Below the pieces are notes generated by a model. It saw only the letters and a program-made list of their open reading frames with translations. It was not told the DNA's origin and did no database searches. DNA of 64,000 nucleotides from Bacteroidales bacterium (GTDB lineage: Bacteria > Bacteroidota > Bacteroidia > Bacteroidales > UBA932). Positions 35,890-64,000 of this stretch are shown one piece after another (the stretch's first letter is position 1; every line of letters starts with the position of its first letter). The DNA lies in the NCBI GenBank assembly GCA_017544005.1, contig JAFYEZ010000037.1:1-64000 (forward strand), given 5' to 3'. The translations under genes and the position numbers were made by a program.

Positions 35890-35890
35890 C

Positions 35891-38682: not shown

Positions 38683-38695
38683 CTGTACCTCCTTT

Positions 38696-40288: not shown

Positions 40289-40299
40289 AGCGGTTCCTC

Positions 40300-43422: not shown

Positions 43423-43431
43423 ACGTTTTGG

Positions 43432-43839
43432 CTATGCGCAGCCCACGGTAATGAGAAGGTTTGCGAAGGTCCGCTGCTCGCCGGTGGCGATGGCCAGGCG
43501 GAGCGAAGGATTGCTGCATTCATCGTAGAATTCGGAACGGCCCAGCCGGCGAAGCTGCATTCCGTCGAGCATCGTATTGAATTCTGCAAAGATTTCAGGG
43601 TCAGGGCCCTCGGCGGGCTGCATCACGGCAGCCTCTTCGATATTGATGACCGACTGAAGGGCATCCAGCACATCGGTGACCGTAGGCAGTCCGGGGCTCA
43701 GCGAGACCCAGATCTTTTCGGCTTCCCCGGTTTTGCTGGCAAGGGGATAGTTGCCGTCCGCAATCAGGATGCGGTCGCCGTGTCCCAGCCGGCTGACGGC
43801 CGCCAGGATGCACGGATTGATACATTTACCTTTGTTCAT
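43432..43839 (-). CDS. RbsD/FucU-family sugar mutarotase
   Basis: The start at 43839 gives MNKGK and an ATGA overlap with the SIS gene; an in-frame start at 43884 lies inside that gene. The 135-residue product has the family signature L-G-H-G-D-R-I-L-I-A-D-G-N-Y-P near residues 18-32 and the C-terminal T-G-E block. RbsD and FucU interconvert anomers of ribose or fucose before phosphorylation or isomerisation. Next to a ribokinase-like gene, it probably supplies the right anomer of the imported sugar. Which sugar is unresolved. Confidence 0.9.
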   Translation of the reverse strand: MNKGKCINPCILAAVSRLGHGDRILIADGNYPLASKTGEAEKIWVSLSPGLPTVTDVLDALQSVINIEEAAVMQPAEGPDPEIFAEFNTMLDGMQLRRLGRSEFYDECSNPSLRLAIATGEQRTFANLLITVGCA

Positions 43840-47803: not shown

Positions 47804-47824
47804 ATCGCTTTTGTATAATAATTT

Positions 47825-48835
47825 CTATTCGAGGATTTCCGGCGAGAGGACAATCTCTTCGACCGGAATTTCCTGTTTGGGTTTTCTGCGGATCTCCGCC
47901 ATCAGCAGCTTCATCGCCTTTCCTGCAAAGAGATCCACGGGCTGGCGGACATAGATGATACCGTGGCCGTTGAAGTCATAGACCGAGTTGCGGTCGAAAC
48001 GGGCCACCTGGTAATCTTCGGGAACCCGGAATCCGTTCCGGATGATCTCGGAGAGCACCAGAGAAGAGAGGGTGTTGGTTGCCATCATAAAGGCCTCGAC
48101 GCCCCTGCTGCGGGCTTCGCGGAAATAATCGGGAATGCAGGCGTAATCGTTGTGGGCCACCCGCTCGATATGGATGTTGTCCGAGAGGCCGGCCGCCTCC
48201 ATCGCATCGCGATACCCCTGTTCGCGGTCGCGGGTGCTGGAAATATCCATCGAGTAGGAGACCATATCGATGCGGCGGGCGCCGCGCGAGAGAAGTTTCT
48301 CCACGATGACGCGGGCTGCACTGCGATTGTCGAGCACCACGCTGCTCACCTCCAGTCCGGGCACCTTGCGGTCGATCAGGACCGTGTTGATTCCGGAGGC
48401 GACAATTTCCCGGAGAGTCTCATCGGCTCCTGCGCAAGGAACCAGGATCAGGCCGTCCACTCCCTTGTTGAGGAGAACGTTCACCACCCGGCGGAATTTC
48501 TCGGGATTTTCGTCGGAACTGCCGAAAATGACGTTGTAATCATAATGATAGGCATCGTCTTCCAGGTACCGGGCAATCTCCGCAAAGAAAGGGTTGGCGA
48601 TATCGGAAACGACGACGCCGATGGTGCCGGTTTTGCCGCTGCGCAGGGCGCGCGCAGAGTTATTTGGCTTATAATGAAGATGTTCCGCGACTTCCAGGAT
48701 GCGCTTGCTGGTCTCCGGGTTGACGCGGTACAACTGCTCGCCGGCGACCCTGTTGCTCATTACGAAGGAGACGAGGGCGGGTGAAACGCCTGCCTCGCGC
48801 GCGATGTCCTTTATGGTCACGTGACGGTTGGTCAT
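47825..48835 (-). CDS. LacI/GalR-family transcriptional regulator
   Basis: The 336-residue protein has an N-terminal helix-turn-helix (about 6-27: V-T-I-K-D-I-A-R-E-A-G-V-S) and hinge (Y-K-P-N-N-S-A-R-A-L-R-S-G). A periplasmic-binding-type effector domain follows, with V-V-S-D-I-A-N-P-F-F and D-G-L-I-L-V-P. It heads the array, 21 bp before the lyase gene, and has the best-formed promoter in the window. It likely represses the array until a sugar or sugar-acid is present. The operator is not obvious by eye. Confidence 0.92.
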   Translation of the reverse strand: MTNRHVTIKDIAREAGVSPALVSFVMSNRVAGEQLYRVNPETSKRILEVAEHLHYKPNNSARALRSGKTGTIGVVVSDIANPFFAEIARYLEDDAYHYDYNVIFGSSDENPEKFRRVVNVLLNKGVDGLILVPCAGADETLREIVASGINTVLIDRKVPGLEVSSVVLDNRSAARVIVEKLLSRGARRIDMVSYSMDISSTRDREQGYRDAMEAAGLSDNIHIERVAHNDYACIPDYFREARSRGVEAFMMATNTLSSLVLSEIIRNGFRVPEDYQVARFDRNSVYDFNGHGIIYVRQPVDLFAGKAMKLLMAEIRRKPKQEIPVEEIVLSPEILE

Positions 48836-49067: not shown

Positions 49068-51242
49068 TTAGTCCCACGTGCCGGGGATCGGGGTGGCCGG
49101 CTGATTGCCACCGGTGCCCGTGTTGGGGCCTGTGGCGTTCCAGGAAGCCATAATCCGGTACGGCACGCCGTTCAGCACAGCCGTTTCGCCGGAATACTGA
49201 TAGTAATAGGCACCGCTGGTGTACTGCGTCTTGGTGCTGGTGACCGTCACCGGGCAATAGACGCATACGGACCATTTTCCGGCCGGCAGGTGCTTGATGC
49301 GCAGGGACTTGGTGGGGCCGGAGGTGCAGAGCAGGTAGTCCGAATCGCCCAGCCAGGCCGTGCGTTCGCGGGCCAGGCCCACATAGAGGTCGTAGGAGGT
49401 TCCGATGCCGGCCAGGGTCAGGGTAAAGTCATCCACATCGGCGGGAAGCTCGATATTGAAGTGATGGTACTGCTTGTCGCCGATCCGGGTGTTGGCGGGC
49501 TGGTTGTCGGTCGTTTTCCTGGTCATCTCGCGGGCGACACCCTTGGAAAGGGTCCCCTTGGGGGTGACACAGCCGTTGCCGTCGCAGGCGTAGCGGATCA
49601 TGGCGGAGAAGAGGTCCCGCTGCTCGCCGGAAGAGACGCCCTCCGGGTGTGATCCGATTACGCAGAGGCGGCCGCTCTCCTCGGTGGCTTTGTAGGCCCA
49701 GCCGCTCACCGAACCGTTCAGTTTGGTGGAATCGGGCCCCGGCGTGAGGTAGCGGAGCAGGATTTCCGTTCCTGCGGGCACCGGATAATCGATCTGCGAC
49801 ATATAGCAGCCGCCGTTGTGGCGGACGCCGTTGATCTGCAGATCGCCGCCGTAATCGTAGTAGTTCAGCAGCGCACAGCCCGGTTCGATGGTCATACTGG
49901 TGTAGGTATCGGTGACGCTCTTGCCCGAGTCGGTCTTGGTGTGGTAGGTATGGCCCGGCCAGATGCCGAAATAGGTAGTGGTAGTTGCCTGGCTGTCATA
50001 GCCTTTGGAGGAGATCAGACAGCCGGCGCAGGTACCCACGTAGGCGCCGCCGTTGGCATAGTAGGCGCGGATGCGGTTGCGGCCCGTTTCGCCGAGCGAA
50101 GCGCCGTGCTGGGTGGATTTACCGCCGTTGACGTAGATGCAGCGAAAACGCGGTTCGCCGTCCGGATAGAGCAGCGCACCGTTCAGGTCCGTATCCGAAC
50201 CGATAAAGACTTCGGTCTGGATCAGCGTGTCCTGCGCGGTCGTTTTGCCGGTGGCGAGCGATGCGTAAAATTCCCAGTCGAGGTTCAAATAACTGGCGGC
50301 CGGCAGCGTGGTGCGCGAAGTCAGGCCGATACCGCCGTCCATGAAGAGATCTTTGTAGTAGCCGCGCTGCAGCGGATCGGCGCTCTCGCTGACGAACTTG
50401 GTGGCCACAGCCGGCATGCGGACCATTTCGGAGCGGCCCGGCGTATTGGCGACCTGGGTCTGGACCACGCCGCAGAGGTTGTCGTTCTTGTCGAAGGCCT
50501 TCACGATAAAGCCCCTATCCAGCGCGCCGGCAGGCACCACAAAGAAGAAGGCCTGCGGGGTGCTGAGCGACAGGGCCACGGAGCCCAGGTTGAGCGTCAG
50601 GGTATTGTCGCCGCCGGAGAGGGTCATGGTCTGTTCGGCGGTGCCCTCCTTGCCGTCGAGGGCCACGGTGCAGTCGCCCCAGAGCAGGTTGCCGCCCAGA
50701 TCGTGCAGCACCAGCCGCGAGAGGGTCGAGGTGCCGGTCAATTTCAGGCAGAGCACGCCGCAGAGGTTTTTGAACTGCAGCGGATCGTCCAGCGAAGCGG
50801 TCTTGGCGATCGACGGATTGGCCCCTTTCGAGAAGGTGCCGGAGGTATAATTCTGCACGGCGGCCAGCTTGAAGTGAAGCTCGCCGGGAAGGCGCGTAAC
50901 CGACTCGTCATACGGATAAATCGCGTACCAGGGCGCAGCGCCGGTGGGAGTGCCGGCAAAGGAGCCGACGGTTTTCTGCGCACCGGAGGTGAGGGTGAAC
51001 TTGCTCTTGGAGCCGTCGTTGCCCAGCAGGGCGAAGGCGTCGTTTGCACTCCAGAGGACCGTGGCCGTATCGGCGGCCAGCACGGTGCGGGTGTCACCCA
51101 CCGGGACGGGGGTTTCGGTGCCGGCCGTCAGGACGACGGGGCCCTCGGCGCCGGTGACCTCGCCCAGGTTGTTGATTGAACAGGAAGCGGCGGCAGCCAG
51201 GGTGGCAGCAGCCATCAGAAGGTGGGAAAAGCGTCTGTTCAT
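49068..51242 (-). CDS. lipoprotein: fimbrillin-like + BPL_N/GATase1-like + PPC-like domains
   Basis: The 724-residue lipoprotein has lipobox A-A-S-C. Residues about 30-280 look fimbrillin-like. After the Y-Y-K-D-L-F-M-D-G-G-I motif, a class-I-amidotransferase-like (BPL_N-type) domain runs to about 575. It has G-T-C-A-G with candidate nucleophile Cys405, and G-S-H-P-E-G with His532 and Glu534, matching the His-Pro-Glu of GATase1 enzymes. The last 130 residues are PPC-like beta sandwich (H-H-F-N-I-E-L-P, L-P-A-G-K-W). It lacks any synthetase partner and is exported, so a glutaminase role is doubtful; hydrolysis of an amide or peptide outside the cytoplasm is a guess. It lies 9 bp after a paralogue. 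Confidence 0.8.
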   Translation of the reverse strand: MNRRFSHLLMAAATLAAAASCSINNLGEVTGAEGPVVLTAGTETPVPVGDTRTVLAADTATVLWSANDAFALLGNDGSKSKFTLTSGAQKTVGSFAGTPTGAAPWYAIYPYDESVTRLPGELHFKLAAVQNYTSGTFSKGANPSIAKTASLDDPLQFKNLCGVLCLKLTGTSTLSRLVLHDLGGNLLWGDCTVALDGKEGTAEQTMTLSGGDNTLTLNLGSVALSLSTPQAFFFVVPAGALDRGFIVKAFDKNDNLCGVVQTQVANTPGRSEMVRMPAVATKFVSESADPLQRGYYKDLFMDGGIGLTSRTTLPAASYLNLDWEFYASLATGKTTAQDTLIQTEVFIGSDTDLNGALLYPDGEPRFRCIYVNGGKSTQHGASLGETGRNRIRAYYANGGAYVGTCAGCLISSKGYDSQATTTTYFGIWPGHTYHTKTDSGKSVTDTYTSMTIEPGCALLNYYDYGGDLQINGVRHNGGCYMSQIDYPVPAGTEILLRYLTPGPDSTKLNGSVSGWAYKATEESGRLCVIGSHPEGVSSGEQRDLFSAMIRYACDGNGCVTPKGTLSKGVAREMTRKTTDNQPANTRIGDKQYHHFNIELPADVDDFTLTLAGIGTSYDLYVGLARERTAWLGDSDYLLCTSGPTKSLRIKHLPAGKWSVCVYCPVTVTSTKTQYTSGAYYYQYSGETAVLNGVPYRIMASWNATGPNTGTGGNQPATPIPGTWD

Positions 51243-51251
51243 TATTGTATT

Positions 51252-52616
51252 TTATTTATTTCCAACAGGTTCATCCCAGGAAGCGGTGAGCGTATAGGGC
51301 ACACCGTTCAGCAAGGTGGTATTTCCGGTATATTTGTAGTAGTGGCCTGTCTGCTCCTGGCCGTTGTCATAGTCGGTCAGGGTGGCCGTGACGGTATCCG
51401 GGCAGCGGACCGCGACCAGCCAGAGGCCGCCCTCGGGCGCCGCTTCGACGAGCGTCTGGGCGCAGCCGGCCTTTAGCGCGCTGAGGCGGGCAACCTCCGG
51501 ATAGGCGAAGGTGCCTTTGTTGAGGTACAGTTCGAGGTTGCACCCTTCGGAACCTTCTGCCCCAGAAAGTGTAATACTCAAGTTTTTAGCGCCTTCCGGC
51601 AGGAAAACAGCAAAATGATGGAACTGCCGGTCCCCGATGCGGGCGTGGGCGAGATCGCCCGATGAATAGAGGGCGGTCATCTCGCAGACCTTCCCGTTCC
51701 AGAGGGTATCCTTGACGGTGGTGCAGCCCTGGCCGTCCATCGCATAGCGGCACATGGCGGCCATCAGGTCGCGGCGCTCGCCGGAAGCAACGCCTTCCGG
51801 ATGCGAACCGCATGCCACCGCACGGCCGGTGAAGGCATCTTTTTTCCAGGCCCAGATGCTGCCCTGCCCATGGACCTTGGTGGTATCGGGGCAGTAATAA
51901 CGCAGCAACAGTTCCGTGCCGGCAGGCGGGGCGGGCGAGAGGTAGCAGCCGCCGTTGTGGCGCACGCCGTCCACCCGCATATCTCCGCCAAAATCATAAT
52001 ATTTCAGCAGCGGACAGCCCGGTTCGACGGTCATCGAGGTATAGGTGTCGGTCATGCTGGTGGGGTAGCAGTGCCCCGGCCAGATGCCCGTATAGTTCGG
52101 GTTGGAGGCGGTGCCGGAACCGGCGGAGGCGAGATAAGCGCCGGCACAGGTGCCCACATAGCTGCCGCCGTTGGCATAGTACTCCCGGATGCGCTTGAGC
52201 GCCTTGCTGCCCTTGGTATTGAGCGACAGGCCGTGGTTGCCCGATTTGCCGCCGTTCATGTAGATCATGCGGAAGCGCGGCGCGCCGTCCGGATAGAGCA
52301 GGCAGCCGTTTTCGTCCTCCGCGCTGTGCGAGAGAACCGCCGTCTGCAGGGTCGTATCCACGGCCGTCATCTTTTCCACGTCCGCGCCGCTGGCGAAGTA
52401 CTCCATCGACAGGTCGAGATATTCGGTGACGGGGAGCGTCGTGCGGGAGGTCAGCGCAATGCCGCCATCCATGAAAAGATCCTTATAGAAACCCCTCAGG
52501 GGCACATCCGTCGGGATCGCCTCATACTGCGGGCCGGGCTCCGGCCCGGGTTTTCCGCAGGCCGCGAGCAGGGTCGCTGCCAGAGCCAGGTTCCAGAGAA
52601 TCAGTTTCTTTCTCAT
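51252..52616 (-). CDS. lipoprotein: BPL_N/GATase1-like + PPC-like domains
   Basis: The 454-residue lipoprotein has lipobox L-A-A-C followed by a Pro-Gly linker. F-Y-K-D-L-F-M-D-G-G-I-A-L-T-S-R opens the amidotransferase-like domain. L-L-Y-P-D-G-A-P-R-F-R and Y-M-N-G-G-K lead to G-G-S-Y-V-G-T-C-A-G with Cys157, and G-S-H-P-E-G gives His272 and Glu274. The C-terminal 120 residues are PPC-like. The layout equals the 450-residue protein at 55736 apart from lipid anchoring. Its start faces the beta-lactamase-fold gene at 52680 across 63 bp with divergent -7 boxes. Confidence 0.82.
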   Translation of the reverse strand: MRKKLILWNLALAATLLAACGKPGPEPGPQYEAIPTDVPLRGFYKDLFMDGGIALTSRTTLPVTEYLDLSMEYFASGADVEKMTAVDTTLQTAVLSHSAEDENGCLLYPDGAPRFRMIYMNGGKSGNHGLSLNTKGSKALKRIREYYANGGSYVGTCAGAYLASAGSGTASNPNYTGIWPGHCYPTSMTDTYTSMTVEPGCPLLKYYDFGGDMRVDGVRHNGGCYLSPAPPAGTELLLRYYCPDTTKVHGQGSIWAWKKDAFTGRAVACGSHPEGVASGERRDLMAAMCRYAMDGQGCTTVKDTLWNGKVCEMTALYSSGDLAHARIGDRQFHHFAVFLPEGAKNLSITLSGAEGSEGCNLELYLNKGTFAYPEVARLSALKAGCAQTLVEAAPEGGLWLVAVRCPDTVTATLTDYDNGQEQTGHYYKYTGNTTLLNGVPYTLTASWDEPVGNK

Positions 52617-52638
52617 TCACGCGAAATAATACAATCTA

Positions 52639-52646
52639 CGAAGGTA
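52639..52646 (-). promoter_or_regulatory. minus-strand -7-like box TACCTTCG
   Basis: One mismatch from TAnnTTTG, 22 bp upstream of the ATG at 52616. With the plus-strand box at 52668 it forms an inverted repeat, consistent with two divergent promoters. Confidence 0.4.
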
Positions 52647-52667
52647 GGGATTTATTTTGGAAAAACC

Positions 52668-52675
52668 TACCTTTG
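52668..52675 (+). promoter_or_regulatory. -7 box TACCTTTG
   Basis: Exact TAnnTTTG match ending 4 bp before the ATG at 52680, implying a leaderless transcript. It mirrors the minus-strand box at 52639-52646. Confidence 0.5.
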
Positions 52676-52679
52676 TCGT

Positions 52680-54185
52680 ATGAAACGTCTTTTCCTCATC
52701 CTTCTGCTCCTGATGGCGTCCCTTACGGGGTTATCGCAAGATCGGGTCTCTGTCGCCCAGGCACTTGACTCGTATATCAAACAGGTCCGCAGGCAGTGGG
52801 CCGTGCCGGGCATGAGCGTGGCGGTCATCCAGGGCGGCAAGACGCTGCTGGCCAAGGGCTATGGCGTCAAGGAGAAGGGCCGGCCGGATCCGGTGGACGA
52901 GAACACGGTGTACCAGATCGGCAGCGTTTCGAAATCCTTTACCTCCGCCCTGATGGCGATGATGGTGGACGAGGGGCTGGTGCGCTGGGACGACCGCGTG
53001 AAAGACCTCCTGCCCGACTTTCGTCCGGTGGACAGCGTCGTCCGCGAGGAGACGCGCGTCAGCGACCTGATGACCCACCGCATGGGCTACACCTCGCAGG
53101 CCGCCACCTATTTTCCGAACCTCGGCTACGACCGCGACCAGACGGCGCGGATGCTCTACCTGCAGAAGCCGCAATACGGCTTCCGGGAGGGCAAGCACTA
53201 CAACAACATGACCTTCCTCACGGCGGCGCAGATTCTGGAGAAAGTGAGCGGAAAAACCTGGGAGGAGCTGCTTCAGGAGCGGATTTTCGGGCCACTGGGG
53301 ATGACGGGCGCCTCCTCCGGCAAAACAGGATACCTCAACTCCCCGAACGTGGCGGGACAGCATGATTTCTCCAACCGCAAGGACACCCTGCGGGTGGTGC
53401 AGCTGCGGGGCAACAACCGCGCGCTGGAGTGGCTGACGGTGATCGGCCCGGCGGGCGGCGTGAACGCCAGCGTGGTGGATCTGGCGCGCTGGGCGGAGTT
53501 TCACCGCACGGGCGGCCTCAACGCGGCGGGCGAACGCCTTCTCTCGCAGGAGCAGGCGGATTACCTGCATACGGGGGTGGTGATCGATGAACAGACCGAC
53601 GACCACCTGACCCTCTACGGGCAGTGCTGGTATATCGAGCAGAATCAAAAATGCCGCCTCTACTACCATACCGGCACCACCTGGGGCCACACGGCGCTCT
53701 GCGTCTTTATTCCCGAGTTCGAAATGAGCCTCGCGATATTGGTGGACAGCGAAGCCCCGGGCGGCGTGCGCTTCTCCATCCTCAAGCGACTGGTGGACCT
53801 CTGGCTGGGGCTTCCGGACGTGGACTACAGCTCCGCCGCACTGCAGAAATGGCTGCACCGCAAGGGGTCGGCGCCGAGCAAGGCCAGCCGCTTCCCGCTG
53901 CGCAAGGAACGCCCGGCCGCCAGCGCCCTCTGCGGAAACTATTCCGCGGGCGAGCTGCTGGGCGATGCCCGCATCTGGCTGAAAGACAATAAACTCTGTA
54001 TTAAAATAGGTCCCAAGGGCTGGACACACCGGATGCTCCACGAACGGGGCAACCGCTGGGTCTTTGACTCGGACGGCCACCGCTTCCGGGCCACCTTCGA
54101 CGTCCGGCCGGATGGCACCGTCCGCGCCTTTGACCTGGACTGGGGCCACGGGGAGACCTTCGATCCCTGGATCCGTAAAAAATAA
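52680..54185 (+). CDS. exported serine hydrolase of the beta-lactamase/PBP4* type
   Basis: The 501-residue protein has a signal peptide ending near G-L-S-Q. The class-C beta-lactamase-like domain (about 25-380) has the S-x-x-K motif Ser82-V-S-Lys85, Tyr174-N-Asn176 and His330-T-G as the third motif. The C-terminal 85 residues form a small lipocalin-like/DUF3471-type domain. Family members include D-aminopeptidases, esterases and PBP-like hydrolases; a true beta-lactamase role is not implied. I chose ATG 52680 because it opens the signal peptide; the frame is open far upstream. The gene at 54191 follows after 5 bp. Confidence 0.9.
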   Translation: MKRLFLILLLLMASLTGLSQDRVSVAQALDSYIKQVRRQWAVPGMSVAVIQGGKTLLAKGYGVKEKGRPDPVDENTVYQIGSVSKSFTSALMAMMVDEGLVRWDDRVKDLLPDFRPVDSVVREETRVSDLMTHRMGYTSQAATYFPNLGYDRDQTARMLYLQKPQYGFREGKHYNNMTFLTAAQILEKVSGKTWEELLQERIFGPLGMTGASSGKTGYLNSPNVAGQHDFSNRKDTLRVVQLRGNNRALEWLTVIGPAGGVNASVVDLARWAEFHRTGGLNAAGERLLSQEQADYLHTGVVIDEQTDDHLTLYGQCWYIEQNQKCRLYYHTGTTWGHTALCVFIPEFEMSLAILVDSEAPGGVRFSILKRLVDLWLGLPDVDYSSAALQKWLHRKGSAPSKASRFPLRKERPAASALCGNYSAGELLGDARIWLKDNKLCIKIGPKGWTHRMLHERGNRWVFDSDGHRFRATFDVRPDGTVRAFDLDWGHGETFDPWIRKK

Positions 54186-54190
54186 CCGTC

Positions 54191-55735
54191 ATGAAACGTT
54201 TCCATTCGTTTATCCTCGCTTGCGCAGCCGCCTCTCTGCTGGCTGCCAGCCCGCTTTCCGCCCAAGTTCTCAACCCGCATGACGCTGCCGAGGCAGCCAT
54301 CCTGGAGAATGTGGACCACTATTTTCAAAAAGTTTGCGCCGACTGGGGCATTCCCGGCGCCGCCCTCTCCATTGTCAAGGACGGACAGCTGGTTTATGCC
54401 CGCGGAATCGGCGTGCGGGACCTGGACAACCCCCAGGAGAAGGTAGACGAGCATACCCATTTCAAAATTGCCTCCGTATCCAAGGCCTTCACGCCCGTGC
54501 TGGTGGCGCAGCTGGTGGATGAGGGAAAGGTGAAGTGGGAGACCCGCGTGCGGGATATTCTTCCGGAATTCCGCCTGCAGGATAGCGTCGCTTCGGAGAA
54601 TATCACCGTCAAGGACCTGTTCCAGCACTGCTCGGGCCTCAAGGCGGGCCAGGGCAGCTACCTGCCGCGCCTGGGTTACGGCCGGGAGAGCATCTTCACC
54701 GTGCTGCCCTACCTCGAGCCGGAATATCCCTTCCGCAGCGGCTATGCCTACCAGACCTTCTTCTACGCGGTGAACGCCCTGCTGGTGGAGCGCCTCACCG
54801 GCCAAAGCTGGGAAGAGGCCATCCGGACCCGGATTTTCCAGCCGCTGGGCATGAACGAGACCACGACCGGCGCCGAGGGGCTGCTCTCCTGTGAAAACCG
54901 CGCGCAGTCGCACGATGTGGCCGTTGTGGACGGGCGGATCGTCGCAACACCGATTCCTTATGAGGAACAGCCCCTCAACCGCCTCAGTGTCATCAGTGCC
55001 TCGGGCGGCATCATCTCCACCGTGACGGATATGGCCAAGTGGCTGCAGTTCCACCTCTCGGACGGCGTCCTGCCCGACGGCACCCGCCTGGTGAGCAAGG
55101 AGCAGATGCGGCGCGTGCACCGCGGAGAGAATCCCCAGATCCAGACCGATTCTTCCATGACGATATATGGCTACGGCTGGCATATCGAATACAGCCCCAA
55201 AGGCAAGCTCTACTGGCACACGGGGTCCGGATTCGGCCATACGGATATCTGTTTCTGGCGGCCCGACCTCCGGCTGGGCTGCATGGTTTCCTGCAATACC
55301 GAGAGCCTCACAGGCGCCCGCCGCGCACTGATGCGCCGGATCATCGACCTCTATCTCGGCCTGCCCGACACGGATTACAGTGCCCGCGAACTGGCTTCCC
55401 TGCTGCGGACCGAAGCCCGGAAAAAGCCGGCTGGACCCGCTCCGGAGCCCAAGCCGGCGCCCGACGCAGAACTGCTGGTCGGAACCTACCGCAACACGAT
55501 CGGCCTGGGTGACGCCCTTGTGGCCCCGGATGGAGACCAGCTGACCATCACGCTGGGCACAAAGCACTGGACACATCCGCTCGAGCCGGTCAGCGGCCGG
55601 AAATTTCGCTTCAAGAGCGAAGGCCACTGGTTCCCCGTCACCTTCCTGCGCAACAAAAAAAGCGGAAAGATTGACTCTTTCCGCCTTCAGTTCGGCCACG
55701 GCGAAGACTTCGGCATGTGGCAGAAAATCAACTGA
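54191..55735 (+). CDS. exported beta-lactamase-fold serine hydrolase, second copy
   Basis: The 514-residue exported protein has a signal ending near L-S-A-Q. Catalytic Ser95-V-S-Lys98 and H-T-G (in W-H-T-G-S-G) are intact. Where the upstream paralogue has Y-N-N, this one reads Y-Q-T, so the usual Asn of the Y-x-N motif is missing or shifted; substrate or mechanism may differ. A Pro-rich linker (about 415-430) leads to the C-terminal lipocalin-like domain. Its stop abuts the stop of the minus-strand amidotransferase-like gene with no spacer and no visible terminator. Confidence 0.9.
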   Translation: MKRFHSFILACAAASLLAASPLSAQVLNPHDAAEAAILENVDHYFQKVCADWGIPGAALSIVKDGQLVYARGIGVRDLDNPQEKVDEHTHFKIASVSKAFTPVLVAQLVDEGKVKWETRVRDILPEFRLQDSVASENITVKDLFQHCSGLKAGQGSYLPRLGYGRESIFTVLPYLEPEYPFRSGYAYQTFFYAVNALLVERLTGQSWEEAIRTRIFQPLGMNETTTGAEGLLSCENRAQSHDVAVVDGRIVATPIPYEEQPLNRLSVISASGGIISTVTDMAKWLQFHLSDGVLPDGTRLVSKEQMRRVHRGENPQIQTDSSMTIYGYGWHIEYSPKGKLYWHTGSGFGHTDICFWRPDLRLGCMVSCNTESLTGARRALMRRIIDLYLGLPDTDYSARELASLLRTEARKKPAGPAPEPKPAPDAELLVGTYRNTIGLGDALVAPDGDQLTITLGTKHWTHPLEPVSGRKFRFKSEGHWFPVTFLRNKKSGKIDSFRLQFGHGEDFGMWQKIN

Positions 55736-57088
55736 TTATTCCCAGGTGACCGTCAGGGTGTAGGGAACGCCGTTGAGGACCTCGAGGTGGCCGGTGTAGG
55801 ACTCGCCGTGGTCCGTCTGGACGGTATCGACGGTGGTGTCGCACTTGACGCCGATATACCAGGTGCCTGCGGGCAGCGTGTCGAATTCCATTGTCTTGAC
55901 GGCGCCGAGGGTCACGTCGGCATAATCAGCCTCCTTGGCAAAGGCGAAATCGCCCTTGCGGAGGGTCAGGAAGAGGTCGTCCTGCGAATAGCCGCCCTGG
56001 AGCGCGATCTTGATGTTCTTGGCGCCCTTGGGGATGTTGACCGTGAAGTGGTGATACTGCTTGTCCCCGATCTTGGCGTGTGCGGGATCGTTGTCGTCCG
56101 TGTCGCAATTCATCACGCGGGCTTCGCCGTTGACCAGTTCACCCTTGACGCGCGGGGTGCCGTTGCCATCCAGGGCATAGAGCACGAATGCGGAGAAGAG
56201 CTGCAGCTGCTCGCCAGCCACCACGCCCTCCGGATGCGATCCGCATAGCACCGTACGGCCGGTTTCCGGGCTTTCTTTCCAAGCCCAGGCGCTGATATGG
56301 TTGGTCACTTTGAAGCGGCCTTCATCCTCGCGCTTCTGGTCCTTGGCTGCATCATAGTCATAGCGTAGCAGTATTTCGGTACCCGGAGCAAAGTGCAGCG
56401 GATCGGTGGTGATGAAGCAGCCGCCGTTGTGATAGACGCTGTCGATATACATATCTCCGCCAAAGTCGTAGTACTTCAGCAGCGGGCTGCCGGGCTCGAC
56501 CTTCATACCGGTGGTAACACGCTCACCTACAAAATCTTTGGTCAGGTTGTTGGTGGAAATGGTGCGGGCCGGATAGACGTGGAAATATTCGAAGCGGACC
56601 TTCTCGCGGTCTTCATCCTTGCAGCGGTTCTTCGTGGGATCGAAACGGGTGTCAGAAATAGAAGCGACGAAGGCGCCTGCGCAGGTACCCACATAGCTGC
56701 CGCCGTTCTTCACGAAGTCGCGGATATGCTGGCGACCCTCCTCGGTGAGGGATTTGCCATGCTTGCCGGCCTTGCCGCCGTTGACATAGATCACGCGGAA
56801 ACGCGGCGCGCCGTCCGGATAGAGCAGGCAGCCGTTCTGGTCAATCTCGGAACGGACCATCAGCGCGGTCTGCTCGAGGGTATCCTTGAGGGTGATGGAC
56901 ATCGGTTTGTGGGGTGCGGAGTAGTAGCGCTCCCAGGAGAGGCCCAGGTAGCGGGCGGAGGGCAAATCTACGCGCGAGGTGATGTTGATGCCACCGTCCA
57001 TAAAGAGGTCTTTGTAATACTGTGCCGAAGCGTCGGGCATCAGGGTCAGCGCCACGAGCGCCGCAATCAGGAGAGAAAGCTTTTTCAT
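55736..57088 (-). CDS. exported BPL_N/GATase1-like protein with PPC-like C-terminus
   Basis: The 450-residue exported protein has a signal ending near A-S-A-Q and then Y-Y-K-D-L-F-M-D-G-G-I at once. The amidotransferase-like domain contains Y-P-D-G-A-P-R-F-R, Y-V-N-G-G-K, G-T-C-A-G with Cys136, and G-S-H-P-E-G with His285 and Glu287. Residues about 335-450 are a PPC-like beta sandwich (Y-H-H-F-T-V-N-I-P, L-P-A-G-T-W-Y-I-G-V). It is converging on the beta-lactamase-fold pair and has its own -7 box. Function unknown; the intact catalytic set argues for enzymatic activity outside the cytoplasm. Confidence 0.82.
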   Translation of the reverse strand: MKKLSLLIAALVALTLMPDASAQYYKDLFMDGGINITSRVDLPSARYLGLSWERYYSAPHKPMSITLKDTLEQTALMVRSEIDQNGCLLYPDGAPRFRVIYVNGGKAGKHGKSLTEEGRQHIRDFVKNGGSYVGTCAGAFVASISDTRFDPTKNRCKDEDREKVRFEYFHVYPARTISTNNLTKDFVGERVTTGMKVEPGSPLLKYYDFGGDMYIDSVYHNGGCFITTDPLHFAPGTEILLRYDYDAAKDQKREDEGRFKVTNHISAWAWKESPETGRTVLCGSHPEGVVAGEQLQLFSAFVLYALDGNGTPRVKGELVNGEARVMNCDTDDNDPAHAKIGDKQYHHFTVNIPKGAKNIKIALQGGYSQDDLFLTLRKGDFAFAKEADYADVTLGAVKTMEFDTLPAGTWYIGVKCDTTVDTVQTDHGESYTGHLEVLNGVPYTLTVTWE

Positions 57089-57245: not shown

Positions 57246-58457
57246 ATGGAACCTTTATTCGAAAGACATCTTGAATATCTAACTGACGTCCCCACTGCTT
57301 TTGAGCGTGAACTGATGCAAACGATTGACTGGGACTCACGCTTGATTCTTATCCGTGGCCCCAAGGGCGTCGGAAAATCCACGCTGATGCAGCAGTACCT
57401 ACTGAAGCATTATGAGGTGACGGACAGACACGCCCTGTACTGCTCAGCGGACTCCTCCTATTTCTCCACACATACGCTTCTGGATACGGCGGCGGCTTTT
57501 GTCCGCCAGGGCGGAAGGCATCTGTTTATTGACGAGATTCATAAGTACGACGGGTGGAGCAGGGAGATCAAGGAGATTTATGATCTCTACAAGGGACTGA
57601 AGGTCGTATTGAGCGGTTCGTCTCTTATCCAGTTGAATGACGGACAGGCAGATCTGTCCAGAAGGCAGGACGTGTATGATATGAGCGGCCTCTCTTTTCG
57701 AGAGTACCTTTGGTTCCGGACAGGGAAGAAGGTGGAGCCCATTTCGCTGGAGCGGCTGCTTGCGGATGCCGGCACTTTCTGTTCGAAGGTTCGTTCTGTT
57801 TACAGGCCGCTGGAGTTCTTCGACGATTATTTGCAGATGGGTTATTATCCATTCTCTTTCGAGAAGAAGAAGACCTATAAGACTCTCATAGAAAATGTCG
57901 GCGCATACATAATCGATACAGAGCTGACTAAGTACCGCGGCGTCAGCCAAGAGAATACCCGCAAAATCAGGGCTTTATTGCAAGTAATCGCCGGCATGCT
58001 TCCGTATCAGGTAGATCTCTCCAAACTGTCCAAGAGCGTGAGTATCGACCGGGTGACGCTGATTCGCTATTTGAAGTATTTGGACGAGGCGCATCTTACC
58101 AGGAATCTATTCTCGGAGGTTGACCGAATCACAGATTTGCAAAAGCCGGACAAACTATTGCTGGACAACACAAATCTGATATATGCTTACTGCGCAAAAG
58201 CCCCGGAAACGGGCACGGTGCGAGAAACTTTCTTCTGCAACCAGCTTTCTGCCGCAGGGCACCTCGTGGAATACGGCGGAATCAAGACGGGAGACTTCCG
58301 AATTGACAAAAACCATGTGATAGAGGTCGGTGGCGCTGGAAAGGACTTTTCTCAAATCAGCGACGAGGATATTTCAAGTGCAGCGCTGGCTGTGGACAAT
58401 GTAGATATCGCCAGCCGGAAGAAGATTCCGCTTTGGGCCTTCGGCTTTTTGTATTGA
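57246..58457 (+). CDS. AAA/DUF4143-type P-loop ATPase
   Basis: The ATG at 57246 opens MEPLF; a TTG-initiated extension to 57201 would run through the promoter and operator. The 403-residue product has Walker A G38-P-K-G-V-G-K-S-T46, Walker B L-F-I-D-E-I-H near residue 100 and sensor-like L-S-G-S-S-L. A winged-helix-like middle follows, and the DUF4143-type C-terminal part ends with G-D-F-R-I-D and V-I-E-V-G-G. These ATPases are numerous in Bacteroidetes and their role is unknown. It is more AT-rich than its neighbours and monocistronic, so lateral acquisition is possible. Confidence 0.88.
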   Translation: MEPLFERHLEYLTDVPTAFERELMQTIDWDSRLILIRGPKGVGKSTLMQQYLLKHYEVTDRHALYCSADSSYFSTHTLLDTAAAFVRQGGRHLFIDEIHKYDGWSREIKEIYDLYKGLKVVLSGSSLIQLNDGQADLSRRQDVYDMSGLSFREYLWFRTGKKVEPISLERLLADAGTFCSKVRSVYRPLEFFDDYLQMGYYPFSFEKKKTYKTLIENVGAYIIDTELTKYRGVSQENTRKIRALLQVIAGMLPYQVDLSKLSKSVSIDRVTLIRYLKYLDEAHLTRNLFSEVDRITDLQKPDKLLLDNTNLIYAYCAKAPETGTVRETFFCNQLSAAGHLVEYGGIKTGDFRIDKNHVIEVGGAGKDFSQISDEDISSAALAVDNVDIASRKKIPLWAFGFLY

Positions 58458-58530: not shown

Positions 58531-60153
58531 TTAGAGTTCGTTCTGGACCATCAGCGGGTTGGCGGAGAGTTCCTGTTCAGGAATCAGCCACTGCCAGCGT
58601 TTGTCGCCTGCAGGAATCACGCGAGCCTCTTCACCGAGCGAAGCACCATACATATCATAGTTGGATGCCAGCGGGTCGAGGTTGGTCGGAGCGGAGGTTG
58701 CGCTGTTCTTCCAAGGGCCTTTGTTGTAACCGTCGCGCGGAGCCGGACCACGGTCGCACGGGAGGTTGAGGCGCTTGAGGTCGAGCCAGCGAAGACCGGC
58801 TTCAGCCCAGAGTTCCACGCGGCGCTGCCACATAATCTTCTCGATCAGGGCATCACCAGTTTCGGTAACAGCTGCATAGCCAGGATCACGGTCGTGACCG
58901 AGCTGGTAAACCAGCTGTTGAGCCTTGGTGACGTTCGCACCGCCGCTGCGGGCATAACCCTCTGCTGCAATCAGCATGATTTCGGGCAGACGCATGTAGG
59001 GAACGTCGCGCTCTTCATACTTGGTGACAGGGTCGTCAACCAGCCACTTCTGCGACATGTACGGCGCTTTCTTGCCGGAAGCGTTGACATAGCAGGTGAC
59101 GGTGTACGGATCCGGGAGCCACATGCCCTTGCGGATATCCGATGCCGGAATCGTGTTGTAGAGCAGACAGTTGATGGCGCGGGGGGAGTTTGCGTTATAG
59201 GAAGCTGCGTTGTTGGAGATGAAGTCATGCCAGCTGCGGAGCTTACCGCCGAACTGGGACTGGTCAGTACGCGAAGATGCGCAAGCCCAGAGCCATTCGG
59301 TGTTACTCATTTCGCCGAAGCGGTTTTCAGCCATACCATCTGTATAGGTGTGCGGATCGAGCGCCGCACCCGAGTGGTCAATCACATCCTGAGCCACGGT
59401 AGCGGCGTCAGCCCATTTGCCCATGGTCAGCAGCACGCGGGCCTTGATGCCCTTGGCCACCCATTGGTCGATATGGGATTTGTTGTACTTCTTGTAGTTG
59501 GTGGCTTCCAATTCCACGATAGCGGCATCGATATCCTTGAGAATCTGGGTATAGACGTCTTCCACGGAGGAGCGGGGCAAATTGTCATCGTTATCCTCGA
59601 TGCGGAGGGGCACACCCAATTGGGTATTGTTACCGGCTGCATCATAACGCTGAGCATACGCCTGAACCAGCTGGAAGTGCAGGAAAGCTCTGTAAGCCAG
59701 AGCCTGGCCCTTCACAAATGCGCGCTGGTTGTCGTCGCCCGGGAGATCGTCAATATAAGAAAGGATACGGTTACCGTTGGCAATAATACGATAAAACAGC
59801 TTCCAATAGAGGTTGCAGTCCATGTATTTGTGCGTCAGGTCGCGGTGGTGGATATACTGCTGCGTCTGCTGGAACATCGCATTCGTATAGGTGAAGATAA
59901 AGTCATCCGAGAGGGCTGCCAGATGGAGGCAGAAGGTCGGATAACCACCCTGGCTGTACCAGTCCGTGCTGCAGTTGTGCAGCAGGCGGTGCATACCGTT
60001 GATGTTCATCAAAGCACTCTCAGTCGTGTTCATGATGTCGCCTTCAGACACCTGGTTGGTCGGCTTGGTCTCAAGGAAGTCCTTGGAGCAGGAAGCCAGC
60101 AGTAAACCGGCTGCGGCGAGAACGAAAAGGGTATTGCTAAAAATCTTTTTCAT
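58531..60153 (-). CDS. SusD/RagB-family lipoprotein of the third pair
   Basis: The 540-residue lipoprotein has lipobox L-A-S-C, then K-D-F-L-E-T-K-P-T, the SusD N-terminus. Later motifs are R-A-F-L-H-F-Q-L-V-Q-A-Y, P-Y-M-R-L-P-E-I-M-L-I-A-A-E and R-R-V-E-L-W-A-E-A-G-L-R. It is only distantly similar to the other two SusD proteins here and belongs to a separate importer. It follows SusC by 18 bp and ends at the bidirectional terminator. Confidence 0.95.
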   Translation of the reverse strand: MKKIFSNTLFVLAAAGLLLASCSKDFLETKPTNQVSEGDIMNTTESALMNINGMHRLLHNCSTDWYSQGGYPTFCLHLAALSDDFIFTYTNAMFQQTQQYIHHRDLTHKYMDCNLYWKLFYRIIANGNRILSYIDDLPGDDNQRAFVKGQALAYRAFLHFQLVQAYAQRYDAAGNNTQLGVPLRIEDNDDNLPRSSVEDVYTQILKDIDAAIVELEATNYKKYNKSHIDQWVAKGIKARVLLTMGKWADAATVAQDVIDHSGAALDPHTYTDGMAENRFGEMSNTEWLWACASSRTDQSQFGGKLRSWHDFISNNAASYNANSPRAINCLLYNTIPASDIRKGMWLPDPYTVTCYVNASGKKAPYMSQKWLVDDPVTKYEERDVPYMRLPEIMLIAAEGYARSGGANVTKAQQLVYQLGHDRDPGYAAVTETGDALIEKIMWQRRVELWAEAGLRWLDLKRLNLPCDRGPAPRDGYNKGPWKNSATSAPTNLDPLASNYDMYGASLGEEARVIPAGDKRWQWLIPEQELSANPLMVQNEL

Positions 60154-60171: not shown

Positions 60172-63100
60172 TTAAAGACCCAGGTTGATACCCACCGTGA
60201 TGGTTCGTGCCGGTTTGGAGAACGAAGCATTCGAGGTGTAGTTGCTGAGCGAGTAGTTGGTGTAGTAACCTCTGCGGGCATTCAACAGGAAGAGGTGGTC
60301 TGCGGAAGCATAAACCTTGATGCTGTTGAGTTGCAGTTTGTTGCAAAGGCTCTTAGGAAGTGCGTAAGCCAGCGTCACGTTGTTGATTTCCAACATGTTG
60401 GTCGTGGTGAACCAACGGGTGGAACGGGTAGCCGTGGTGTTCTCGCTGTAGGAGGAGGAACCAACGGCCTTGGTGCTGGTGGTCAGGATCGCAAAGTCGG
60501 TAACGTCGCCGGGCTGCTTCCAGGATTTGGCTGCATCCACGTGGCGGTTGATGTACGGCTTGTTATCGCCGATGATACCCTGCTGCAGGATGTTGGAATA
60601 ACCACGGTCATAACCGACACCGCCCAACTGGTAGTACAGGTTGAGTGCGAAGGTGAAGTTACCCACGGTGAGGTCGGTGGTGATACCGCCGAATACCTTC
60701 GGAAGCGGGGAACCGCTGTAGTCCTGCTTGGACTGTGCGATAGCCGTCGTGTAGTACTTGCCGTCAATGGTAACGACGTCTGCATTCGTTTCGATACCGT
60801 CGATATATTCATTCGTAACGTTGCCCTCAGCGTCCTTCTTGTAGAAGCCATCACCCAGAGTGAAGTAGTTCAGACCGGTAGCCGGGTCGACGCCCTGCCA
60901 CTGATAGAGCCACCACTCATAGACGGAGTGGCCTTCTTCAATCTTGTTGAAGCTGCTGTTGGTGGTGTAAGCCGGAATCGGCAGATAGGTAATCTTGTTC
61001 TTGAGGATGGAGGCGTTCGCACCGACATTCCATTTCACCTTTTTGGTCTTGATGATGTCATAACCCAACTGCAGCTCGAAACCGCTGTTAAGCAGACCAC
61101 CGTCGTTGGTCGGATAAGAGTTCTTACCCGTGGAAGGAGCGAGGGTCACGTCCATCAGCAGGTTGCTGGTCTGGTGGTGGAAGTATTCGATGGTACCGGT
61201 CAGGCGACGCTTGAAGGCCTGGAACTCGACTGCGACATCCCAGTTGGTATTAACCTCCCACTGGAGATCGAGGTTACCCGGGGAGTCCATCACCTGCGTG
61301 TAGCCCGGCTCGGTGTCGTTCAGCTTCAGCTCGTACAGTGCCATATAAGGCCAGTATTGGCCGAGGTCGTCGTTACCGACGGTACCGATGGATGCACGGA
61401 GTTTCAACTGATCGATCTGGGAAACACCCTTCATGAAGTCTTCGTTGCTGATAATCCAGCTGCCGCCCACGGACCAGAAGTTACCCCAGCGGGATTTGCT
61501 GTAGAAACGCGAGGAACCGTCACGACGGAACGAAGCGGAGAGGTAATACTTGCTCAGGTAGTCGTAGTTGACGCGGCCCAGGTAGCTTTCCGTGCGATAG
61601 TTGTGCTGATAGCCGGAAGGAACCGTGTTGGCGTCGGCGTAGTTGTTGAACTGGTAGTTGGTACCGATCACAATCTGGTTGGCCTTGCCGGAGGTCTCAT
61701 AATCATAGACATACTGATAGGTCTCGTGACCGACCAGCGCGTCAACGTGGTGATCGCCGAAGGACTTGGTCCAGCTCAGCAGCTGGTTGGCCGTGCGCGT
61801 CTGGGTGTTCGAGAAGGTCAGGGTCGCTGAAGAGGAGTGGCCTTTGTAGTCCTCAAAGTACGGAGTTGCGGAGTGAGCGGTGTAACCGCTGTTGTAGATC
61901 GATGCGTTGGCCGTGAACTTCAGGTCGAACGGGAGTTTGATCTCGATGAACGGCTTCACGTTGATGATGTTTCTCTTGTAGTGGCTGTAACGGTTTGCCG
62001 TGTAAGCAGCTACGTTGAAGGAGAAGTCCGTACGGGCAGGAATGACATCATAGGATATACCGTCGGGTTTATAGTATACCTTGAGTCCGTTTTTGAAATC
62101 GTCCGGTTGGTTGTAACCCTCACCGAAGTCGTAGATCTTGTTGCCTGCACCGTCGAGGACATAGGAACCGTCGGCCCAGTGGAGGTGGATCGGGTAGGTC
62201 GGGACGATCTTCAGCACCACGTGATAGGCGTTCTGACGGTCGTTGGCCGAGGTGGAGAGGTTACCGGACTGGTCACTGACGGAACCCGAAGCGTTGACAC
62301 CGAACTTCAGCCATTTCTTTTCGAAGCTGACGTTGGCGCGAGCGGAATAGCGCTCGAAGCCGGTTCCCACCATATAACCCTTGGTGTCCGTGTAGCCGAC
62401 GCTGCCGAAGTAAGTGGTGTACTTGCCTTTACCGGAAGCGGAAATACCATAGTCCTGTACCTGGCCCACACGCTCGGTTGCGCCCAGCCAGTCCACGTCG
62501 TCCTCATAGAGGAACTTAGCGGCAGGGTTGAACTTACCGTCGGTGCCGACCACGTTGTTGAAAGCAGCACCGGTGAACGGATAAAAATCTTCGCGATAAC
62601 CCAGGTTGGTCAGCAGGTCGCCGGAAGCGTTGGTAGCCGCAACATCTGCTGCCTGGCCGTTCAACACGTTCGTGTTATAGAGCTGCTGCCAGTAGTTCTC
62701 CATGTAATCCTGGAGGTTCATGGTCTTGTAGTCTTTCTGCTCACGAGTTACGAAACCGTGGGAGATCTTGACATTGATGGACGGGACTTCACCCTTGCCC
62801 TGCTTGGTGGTGATCATAATCACACCGTTTGCAGCACGGGACCCGTAAAGAGCGGTGGAAGCCGCATCCTTCAGGACGGTGATGGACTCGATGTCGGATG
62901 ACGGGATCGTAGCCAGGTTTCCGGAATAGATCATACCGTCCATGACAATCAGCGGGTCGGTATTACCATTGATGGAGCCGATACCACGTACGGTGATGGT
63001 TGCGTCAGCACCCGGCTGGCCGCCCGCGGAGGTCAGACGAAGACCCGGGGTGGTACCGTTCAGGGTGTTGAGCGGGTTGGTGCTCGGCACGAGTTCGATC

Positions 63101-63486
63101 TTCTCGCCGGAGACCTTGCCGGCAGAACCGGTGAAGGAGGTCTTCGTCGCGGAACCGTAGGCCACGACCATCACCTCGTCCAGGGCGGCTGCGTCCGTAG
63201 CGAGGGATACGTTAATCTGAGCGCGGCCGCCGACAGTGACTTCCTGGTTTTCATAACCGACAGCACTGAAGACGAGAACGCTCTTTGCGTTGGGTACGGA
63301 GATGGAATACTTGCCGTCCGCATCCGCAGCGACACCGGTGGTGGTGCCCTTCACGACGACGCTGGCATACGGGATGCCTGCACCGTCCGAAGCGTCGGAA
63401 ACCGTACCGGTGACTTTAATCTGCGCAAAGGCTGAGCCGGCGAGGGTCAGAAATGCGCACATTAAAAACAGAATACGCTTTTTCAT
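60172..63486 (-). CDS. SusC/RagA-family TonB-dependent transporter of the third pair
   Basis: The 1104-residue transporter has a signal ending near S-A-F-A-Q, a carboxypeptidase-regulatory-like domain (about 25-105) and a plug. The plug has V-M-V-V-A-Y-G, V-R-G-I-G-S-I-N-G, I-V-M-D-G-M-I-Y and L-K-D-A-A-S-T-A-L-Y-G-S-R. The barrel ends in V-G-I-N-L-G-L rather than a terminal Phe. No enzyme follows in the operon. The divergent gene across 140 bp is another amidotransferase-like protein, so that family may process what this pair imports; this is inferred from position only. Confidence 0.95.
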   Translation of the reverse strand: MKKRILFLMCAFLTLAGSAFAQIKVTGTVSDASDGAGIPYASVVVKGTTTGVAADADGKYSISVPNAKSVLVFSAVGYENQEVTVGGRAQINVSLATDAAALDEVMVVAYGSATKTSFTGSAGKVSGEKIELVPSTNPLNTLNGTTPGLRLTSAGGQPGADATITVRGIGSINGNTDPLIVMDGMIYSGNLATIPSSDIESITVLKDAASTALYGSRAANGVIMITTKQGKGEVPSINVKISHGFVTREQKDYKTMNLQDYMENYWQQLYNTNVLNGQAADVAATNASGDLLTNLGYREDFYPFTGAAFNNVVGTDGKFNPAAKFLYEDDVDWLGATERVGQVQDYGISASGKGKYTTYFGSVGYTDTKGYMVGTGFERYSARANVSFEKKWLKFGVNASGSVSDQSGNLSTSANDRQNAYHVVLKIVPTYPIHLHWADGSYVLDGAGNKIYDFGEGYNQPDDFKNGLKVYYKPDGISYDVIPARTDFSFNVAAYTANRYSHYKRNIINVKPFIEIKLPFDLKFTANASIYNSGYTAHSATPYFEDYKGHSSSATLTFSNTQTRTANQLLSWTKSFGDHHVDALVGHETYQYVYDYETSGKANQIVIGTNYQFNNYADANTVPSGYQHNYRTESYLGRVNYDYLSKYYLSASFRRDGSSRFYSKSRWGNFWSVGGSWIISNEDFMKGVSQIDQLKLRASIGTVGNDDLGQYWPYMALYELKLNDTEPGYTQVMDSPGNLDLQWEVNTNWDVAVEFQAFKRRLTGTIEYFHHQTSNLLMDVTLAPSTGKNSYPTNDGGLLNSGFELQLGYDIIKTKKVKWNVGANASILKNKITYLPIPAYTTNSSFNKIEEGHSVYEWWLYQWQGVDPATGLNYFTLGDGFYKKDAEGNVTNEYIDGIETNADVVTIDGKYYTTAIAQSKQDYSGSPLPKVFGGITTDLTVGNFTFALNLYYQLGGVGYDRGYSNILQQGIIGDNKPYINRHVDAAKSWKQPGDVTDFAILTTSTKAVGSSSYSENTTATRSTRWFTTTNMLEINNVTLAYALPKSLCNKLQLNSIKVYASADHLFLLNARRGYYTNYSLSNYTSNASFSKPARTITVGINLGL

Positions 63487-63626: not shown

Positions 63627-64000
63627 ATGAGAAAGGCCCTCCCGCTTGGTTTTTGTCTGCTGTTCTGGCTGACATTCACCCCTTTTCCGGCCGCAGGACA
63701 GTACTATAAGGATATCTTCGTGGATGCCGGCATCCACATGAGCGACTACCACGATTTTCCCGTTGCGCGCCTGCTCGGCCTGAGCTGGGAACGCTTCACC
63801 GCCGGGGAGTATCCCGACCACCTCACGTTGCGCGACACCGTCACGCAACGCGCGCTCTACGAAGGGTCCGAACTCGATGAAAACGGCGTTCTGCTCTATC
63901 CGGACGGGGCTCCTCGCTTCCGGATAGTCTATGTCCACGGCGGCCTGGCCACCCGGCACGGCAATTCGATGGGCGAGCGGGGCCGCGACCATTTCCGTGC
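63627..64000 (+). CDS. exported BPL_N/GATase1-like protein, 3' end beyond window
   Basis: The first 124 codons are visible; the frame is still open at the window edge. A signal peptide ends near A-A-G-Q and is followed by Y-Y-K-D-I-F-V-D-A-G-I, then L-G-L-S-W-E-R, L-L-Y-P-D-G-A-P-R-F-R and V-H-G-G. These are the same landmarks in the same order as the proteins at 49068, 51252 and 55736, closest to the last. The region that would hold the catalytic Cys and His-Pro-Glu is not yet reached. It is divergent from the third SusC gene. Confidence 0.82.
   Translation, partial: MRKALPLGFCLLFWLTFTPFPAAGQYYKDIFVDAGIHMSDYHDFPVARLLGLSWERFTAGEYPDHLTLRDTVTQRALYEGSELDENGVLLYPDGAPRFRIVYVHGGLATRHGNSMGERGRDHFR

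Follow-up and report, generated by a model that had tools for sequence, protein, structure and literature searches.

Predicted exported BPL_N-type proteins with a nearly invariant Cys/His/Glu triad in a gene cluster of a Bacteroidales genome

INTRODUCTION

What would proteins built like glutamine amidotransferases do outside the cytoplasm, side by side with serine hydrolases? The question is raised by a gene cluster at positions 49068 to 57088 of the first 64,000 nucleotides of contig JAFYEZ010000037.1, from a Bacteroidales bacterium (GenBank assembly GCA_017544005.1). We call this 64 kb stretch the window; all coordinates are those of the window, and the same numbering continues along the contig beyond its end. 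A preliminary description, made from the sequence alone, saw here three exported proteins (P0001 to P0003) with the triad of class I glutamine amidotransferases (GATase1), which flank two exported Ser-x-x-Lys hydrolases (P0004 and P0005). It took the set for a candidate undescribed system of amide or peptide processing. Our analysis places P0001 to P0003 among the members of the Pfam family BPL_N (PF09825), with export predicted from their N-termini. The domain itself has already been named; what is new is an exported, multi-copy variant with a nearly invariant triad. The reading that we favour, to which we give about an even chance from sequence, is that these proteins are surface or periplasmic cysteine amidohydrolases, which would help peptidases like P0004 and P0005 and a SusC/SusD importer to scavenge amide-linked compounds, probably peptides. 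Other genomes, contigs and loci are cited below by our own handles (G, C and L numbers).

RESULTS

Three BPL_N-type proteins flank two serine hydrolases

The core of the cluster consists of five open reading frames, each within a conserved protein family: P0001 (49068..51242) and P0002 (51252..52616) on the minus strand, P0004 (52680..54185) and P0005 (54191..55735) on the plus strand, and P0003 (55736..57088) again on the minus strand. They were assigned from open reading frames, Pfam matches and motifs, and for P0004 and P0005 also from relatives in the PDB. Only 9 bp separate the stop codon of P0002 from the start codon of P0001, and 5 bp lie between P0004 and P0005. These genes had served to train the gene caller, so its score is no evidence of genehood here. 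The genes, positions and residue numbers of the preliminary description were exact.

P0003 (45.5 bits) and P0002 (31.6 bits) score over the BPL_N cut-off of 24.2 and P0001 falls just below it (23.5 bits, E 3e-5). All 46 members of a diverse family alignment match BPL_N at E 0.01, which bears out the earlier assignment to an amidotransferase-like family; 4 of the 46 also match Peptidase S51 weakly. No biotin ligase catalytic domain was found in Pfam scans of P0001, P0002 and P0003. As expected from the preliminary description, no partner synthetase was seen in these three proteins or in the neighbour genes that were scanned singly. A PDB search with P0003 gave no match at E 1, and with the family alignment the best match (E 0.17) was a peptidase named Lmo0363. 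Matches to galectin-7, returned by the alignment search at a QYHHF motif, were judged to be due to chance.

Export was read by eye from the N-terminal sequences. P0001 and P0002 are lipoprotein-like, with lipobox-like sites (AASC and LAAC, respectively), and P0003, P0004 and P0005 have signal-peptide-like N-termini, that of P0003 without a lipobox; this agrees with what had been described. The PPC-like end ascribed to all three proteins held in part: Pfam PPC (PF04151) matches P0003 with 31.6 bits (cut-off 25.9), but P0002 stays below the cut-off (14.4 bits) and PPC is not listed for P0001. Among the aligned members, 32 of 46 match PPC at E 0.01. The family shares YKD-x-F near the mature N-terminus, HN-x-G, the Cys elbow and HPE, followed in the C-terminal domain by GD-x-Q-x-HH, present in P0001, and LNG-x-x-Y. 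The proteins come in two sizes: the short form has about 430 aa, and the long form is extended at its N-terminus by about 200–350 residues. P0001 has an N-terminal extension of about 290 aa, and no Pfam family matched its residues 1–291.

The Cys/His/Glu triad is nearly invariant

The triads are Cys405/His532/Glu534 in P0001, Cys157/His272/Glu274 in P0002 and Cys136/His285/Glu287 in P0003. When all six reading frames of the window are searched, G[TS]CAG followed by a suitably spaced HPE is found three times, and since the three occurrences sit in frames with the lengths of P0001 to P0003, the combination is not a chance one. We then counted the triad in 155 distinct profile matches of at least 380 aa, taken without any motif filter. 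It is intact in 153 of them, or in 153 of the 154 that span it, and in 26 of the 27 long forms that do; L081:15842 fails through truncation at its locus end. GD-x-Q-x-H of the C-terminal domain (G341, D342, Q344, H346) is kept in 154 of 154. Since the triad is so rarely lost, the exported BPL_N-type proteins are probably catalytic.

Residues 100–288 of P0003 align to BPL_N positions 53–221, which by linear offset puts Cys136 and His285/Glu287 near positions 89 and 218–220. This agrees with C89/H215/E217 of yeast biotin protein ligase (BPL), which the available parts of PMC12582158 call correctly placed in an AlphaFold model that is backed by hydrogen exchange.

Two loci (L162 and L166) have long open frames (about 870 aa) in which a stretch close to the C-terminus is BPL_N-like. 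This stretch seems degenerate in L162, as its elbow cysteine is replaced (GIKEGA). An M14 neighbour in L087 has a weak ThuA match at a similar place.

P0004 and P0005 resemble S12 peptidases

P0004 and P0005 match PF00144 with 202.4 and 202.8 bits. P0004 has SVSK at 82 (S82-x-x-K85), HTG and YNN, plus a C-terminal DUF3471-like match below the cut-off, and P0005 has SVSK at 95 (S95-x-x-K98), HTG and YQT. We rejected class C beta-lactamases, with NCBIfam bla_class_C scores of 95.1 and 54.5 bits against a cut-off of 415. The SxxK and HxG motifs are those of the Pab87 and CubicO S12 peptidases, but the C-terminal domain of CubicO does not come over its cut-off, and IS11 (7spn) is closer. IS11 is the best solved relative of both proteins; the second best is 2qmi (phmmer E 1e-17 for P0004, 1.4e-23 for P0005), which we take to be Pab87. 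Pab87 cuts D-amino-acid peptides and its proposed role is the processing of bacterial cell debris, as stated in the available parts of PMC2651629. The likeness of P0004 and P0005 to Pab87 is a resemblance in sequence only, not one of specificity; Pab87_oct reaches 12.1 bits in P0005 alone (cut-off 27), and the solved relatives of P0005 include esterases.

The preliminary description had proposed a link between BPL_N-type and beta-lactamase-fold genes, and a survey of their co-occurrence across genomes. The link is real in the source genome: of its 10 PF00144 genes, 6 are no more than 5 kb from a family member, where 0.67 would be expected (P 1.5e-5, tandem copies uncollapsed). It is also local. 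PF00144 adjoins family members in loci of G000, G010, G013, G018, G029 and G031, that is, in five genus genomes beyond the source, as well as in L086, and among the 119 loci where a family member was called, 17 show the pairing (by phmmer label), several of these being the same place fetched twice. In G021, none of the six listed PF00144 matches (of 7) is within 5 kb of any family match. We thus rejected the view that family members as a rule have a beta-lactamase-fold partner; the pairing with serine hydrolases does not extend beyond a single set of related genomes.

Genes near family members

We compared 542 genes at most three positions from a family member (near) with 370 genes at least five positions away in the same loci (far). 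Eight proteins with a length of 337 aa or more, among them 3 sequence pairs or fragments, were counted as neighbours and not as family, and related genomes inflate the counts. PF00144 (23/542 near vs 1/370 far, P 5.5e-5), SusD (25/542 vs 4/370, P 0.002) and SusC (27/542 vs 6/370, P 0.005) were more frequent near the family, with P values that are optimistic because the labels were taken from families already seen. Smaller counts were obtained for AAT (7 vs 2), C69 and C26 (5 vs 1 each), M14 and racemase (5 vs 0 each), GltS (5 vs 2), GH97 (2 vs 2), Amidohydro_3 (2 vs 1), M15 (2 vs 0) and an N-formylglutamate-amidohydrolase-like family, here FGase (1 vs 0). Grouping at 70% identity gives 74 groups, with 11 for near PF00144, 9 for AAT, 3 for C69, 4 for C26 and 5 for M14. 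In a Pfam tally unselected by family, the gene clusters scanned were 117 (of 226) near and 120 (of 219) far. Here AAT (5/117) and the TonB-receptor Plug domain shared first place among the near families; AAT is not among the families listed for the far set (25), where at least one member (L028:14334) is AAT-type. Genome-wide positions, as used above for PF00144, make for a fairer test.

Single loci were also informative. Three metagenome-assembled genomes (MAGs) titled Prevotella (L122, L124 and L128) have the order C26, racemase/GltS, BPL_N, BPL_N, C69, the racemase/Na-glutamate-symporter protein being split in two in L124. A family member is followed by an Asp/Glu racemase in L136 and L147, and L094 reads SusC-SusD-AAT-FGase-BPL_N-M14. 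On C9 of G000, two family members are found with PF00144, a NUDIX/GreA-type protein and an exported C26-like protein; C71 of G010 repeats this run with a single family member. G018 and G029 have two family members around two PF00144 genes, with a C69 gene adjoining. What these loci suggest is peptide or amino-acid amides, glutamate being a recurrent element, and the theme of amide or peptide processing proposed earlier is seen among the neighbour genes.

The long forms show another association. Of 24 long forms, 9 are followed immediately by a DUF285-type leucine-rich repeat (LRR) gene on their own strand, against 1 of 114 short forms; only members with CAG and HPE were counted, and genes at locus ends were excluded. 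Long BPL_N proteins with a downstream DUF285/BspA-like LRR protein occur in L033, L035, L036, L048, L210, L211 and L212, and in L211 and L212 they form tandem pairs, as repeated two-gene cassettes. Given this pairing, part of the expanded family may do something other than nutrient release at the cell surface.

Distribution of the family

The source genome (1.57 Mb, 85.8% complete) holds 12 family genes; another scan gave 13 pieces. Within the genus, 32 of 40 genomes have the family, with 36, 17, 16, 12, 9, 8 and 6 matches (a few of them fragments) in seven genomes and 1–3 in the rest. The largest count belongs to G021, with 36 matches in 1.9 Mb. In samples wider than the genus the family is rare: it was found in 4 of 393 genomes of the order, source genome included, and in 3 of 299 genomes of the genus of G722, two of them known carriers beforehand; both counts may be too low, since scoring was limited to the few best candidates of each genome. 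Among named genome contigs, 339 relatives turned up, and we retained 79 loci. The MAGs that they come from are titled Bacteroidales, Prevotella, Alistipes, Candidatus Cryptobacteroides and others, and many are rumen MAGs. The closest relative of P0003 is 94% identical and comes from a goat-rumen MAG (L080). BPL_N matches were found in 11 of 296 genomes of a phylum sample, source genome included, 6 of them above the cut-off. Of the matches inspected, two (L159 and L161) have a signal-peptide-like start and a similar triad.

The rest of the cluster and of the window

Several parts of the cluster were absent from the preliminary description: the BPL_N identity, SusC/SusD, extra PF00144 genes and 9 further genomic members, among them a fourth copy that begins in the window. 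A SusD-like outer-membrane lipoprotein (58531..60153, minus strand, Pfam scan) and a SusC-like TonB-dependent transporter (60172..63486, minus strand, identified by its BLAST group of SusC-like proteins only) are probably part of the cluster; SusD-group genes adjoin P0003-type genes in G010, G013 and G031. A fourth BPL_N-type exported protein starts at 63627 on the plus strand, so that 63627..64000 lies in the window, and ends near contig base 64,964. It is followed by three further PF00144 genes (contig 65–68.6 kb). Membership of an AAA_14 ATPase (57246..58457, plus strand, Pfam), with a DUF4143-like part just under the cut-off, is uncertain. AAA-type genes of another group, one of which (in L146) was scanned, lie near family or SusCD genes in L061, L146 and L041.

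Upstream, 29817–48835 encodes BNR-repeat (sialidase-like) proteins, SusC/SusD, an SIS-domain protein and a sodium:solute symporter (Pfam). It also encodes what we take, from sequence, to be a DHDPS/NanA-like aldolase, a ribokinase-like kinase and a LacI-type regulator. This looks like a separate sialic-acid-type utilisation locus. We found no support for the idea that the cluster is part of the sialidase-like locus (29–49 kb), whose genes are not common neighbours in family loci elsewhere, judged by BLAST groups. Further upstream, 2720–6865 encodes two adjacent proteins of one BLAST group, of which the scanned one (4787–6865) is GH97; two proteins of this group also adjoin the BPL_N cluster in G010 (L040). 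Four proteins of another BLAST group lie in 6929–27838, and the scanned one (13817–15817) has FG-GAP repeats.

DISCUSSION

Relation to known systems

The domain of P0001 to P0003 is not undescribed, as had been claimed. In eukaryotes, class III biotin protein ligases such as yeast Bpl1 carry BPL_N, an amidotransferase-like domain, at their N-terminus and have Cys/His/Glu in the matching region, according to the parts of PMC12582158 available to us. These enzymes carry a ligase domain, which was not seen in the window family; unlike them, the latter is exported and multi-copy, with a PPC-like domain, YKD-x-F and GD-x-Q-x-HH. L159 and L161, as Bacteroidota BPL_N proteins with signal-peptide-like starts, resemble the window family in their CAG elbow and SPH-x-E, and a profile comparison joins them to it in the N-terminal half only (probability 97%, E 8e-11). 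With 254 aa, L159 has no room for a PPC-like domain, and L161 runs on into other sequence. In the open-licence literature searched, we found no report of exported bacterial BPL_N proteins.

The view of GATase1 enzymes as mere ammonia feeders is too narrow, and C26-type proteins are among the neighbours here. Peptidase C26 and Peptidase S51 (cyanophycinase/PepE) are hydrolases without a synthetase, with a serine nucleophile in S51, and secreted gamma-glutamyl hydrolases and cyanophycinases belong to the GATase-fold superfamily. The cluster also has adjacent SusC and SusD genes together with predicted surface hydrolases, as in SusCD utilisation loci. In SusCD peptide import by RagAB of Porphyromonas gingivalis (PMC11817032), SusC/SusD likewise lie by peptidase-like genes.

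A cysteine amidohydrolase and its alternatives

As exported cysteine amidohydrolases, the BPL_N-type proteins would use Cys to attack the amide carbonyl, with His and Glu acting as a base pair, and water rather than a synthetase would take the acyl group. With two Pab87/AmpH-like serine peptidases and a SusC/SusD importer as partners in this locus, they may serve the trimming and import of amide-linked compounds, probably peptides. From the triad and the neighbours we infer both catalysis and an extracellular peptide substrate. The most speculative step is to name that substrate as a gamma-glutamyl or D-amino-acid peptide, for example a muropeptide stem; the D-amino-acid or cell-wall substrate of the preliminary description is such a hypothesis.

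Several observations weigh against this reading. In L078:5039-7375, assigned to the family by its profile match, Gly replaces the triad Cys and Arg replaces the His; Pfam BPL_N was not detected in it. Peptidase C26 (gamma-glutamyl hydrolase) has the same elbow plus HPE layout, but two comparisons of its hidden Markov model with that of the window family were not significant, Cys and HPE being in register in the best local alignment. According to what is available of PMC12582158, the yeast BPL domain formed no glutamate from glutamine in vitro. Taken singly, the near/far differences of AAT, C69, C26, M14 and racemase are not significant (P 0.07–0.22), and we selected the neighbour families to test once we had seen them. 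In favour of the reading, a set of 19 genomes, reached via contig-scan loci and with no family place coinciding with those of the 40 genus genomes, gave within 5 kb 3/19 for AAT (expected 0.09), 3/44 for C69 (0.25) and 3/22 for C26 (0.12). This set was picked from loci already seen, and for C69 and C26 a single event may lie behind the counts, since G722–G724 have the same gene order. Against it, eight genus genomes showed no significant association for AAT (2/19, P 0.30), C69 (4/31, P 0.13) or C26 (2/25, P 0.51). Many family copies have no hydrolase neighbour in our maps. The common single copy of the genus (L060, L062, L063, L064, L066, L068, L071, L074 and L076) lies directly after genes that, from their N-terminal sequence, we take to be acetate kinase, phosphotransacylase and butyrate kinase.

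The clustering of PF00144 with BPL_N genes could be incidental, arising by tandem duplication within one inherited locus. We think this rather unlikely. It would explain why PF00144 adjoins the family in only six genus genomes and L086, and why, once tandem copies are collapsed, two contigs (C30 and C9) carry the association in the source genome. Against it, gene order differs among G000/G010, G013/G031 and G018/G029 with the content kept, and a separate PF00144 neighbour exists on C9 of G000 and C71 of G010. It is unlikely that the proteins are non-enzymatic surface binders of ligands, expanded by an adhesin-like diversification, especially of the long forms with BspA/DUF285 LRR proteins. An intact triad in nearly all members, long forms included, would be unexpected for a mere binding fold, and LRR genes are not enriched near the family (7/542 near vs 9/370 far). 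This explanation can draw on the 36 matches in one small genome, on the LRR genes downstream of the long forms, on L078:5039, where a fimbrillin-like Mfa_like_1 domain accompanies the lost triad, and on the lack of glutaminase activity of the yeast BPL domain (PMC12582158, same parts).

Other alternatives keep the enzyme and change the substrate. Known members of the AAT/CBAH-type Ntn amidases act on N-acyl amides, and the AAT count in the scanned near clusters, together with the esterases among the solved relatives of P0005, could argue for an exported amidohydrolase of a non-peptide amide (an N-acyl amino acid, a bile-acid-like or a glycan-linked amide). We consider this quite unlikely, as the C26, C69, M14, M15, racemase and glutamate-symporter neighbours fit peptides and amino acids better. 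Very improbable, in our view, is an exported glutaminase- or asparaginase-like enzyme that would supply nitrogen as ammonia, or glutamate, from glutamine. The fold family and the racemase and glutamate-symporter neighbours would suit it, but it leaves the PPC-like domain and the Pab87-like partners unexplained. Moreover, the one BPL_N protein found tested, yeast BPL, had no activity with glutamine in the available parts of PMC12582158; of the domain in general, no reported enzymatic activity was found.

A wider form of the amidohydrolase reading, which is tentative and on balance rather unlikely, would place a so far uncharacterised, lineage-expanded family of surface cysteine amidohydrolases at the enzymatic centre of the loci by which gut Bacteroidales use peptides. 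The bonds cut would be gamma-glutamyl or D-amino-acid linkages, for example in the stem peptides of peptidoglycan. Such loci would combine SusC/SusD and BPL_N with Pab87-like, C69, AAT, C26 or M14 hydrolases and a glutamate racemase or symporter. If this were true, it would provide the first enzymatic activity for BPL_N and a hint as to why eukaryotic biotin ligases have the triad.

A multi-copy exported family, a near-invariant triad and neighbours that hint at substrates together make the open question of BPL_N activity testable. If the family proves to be a gamma-glutamyl or D-peptide hydrolase, it would be a new enzyme type for the nutrient-acquisition loci of gut Bacteroidales.

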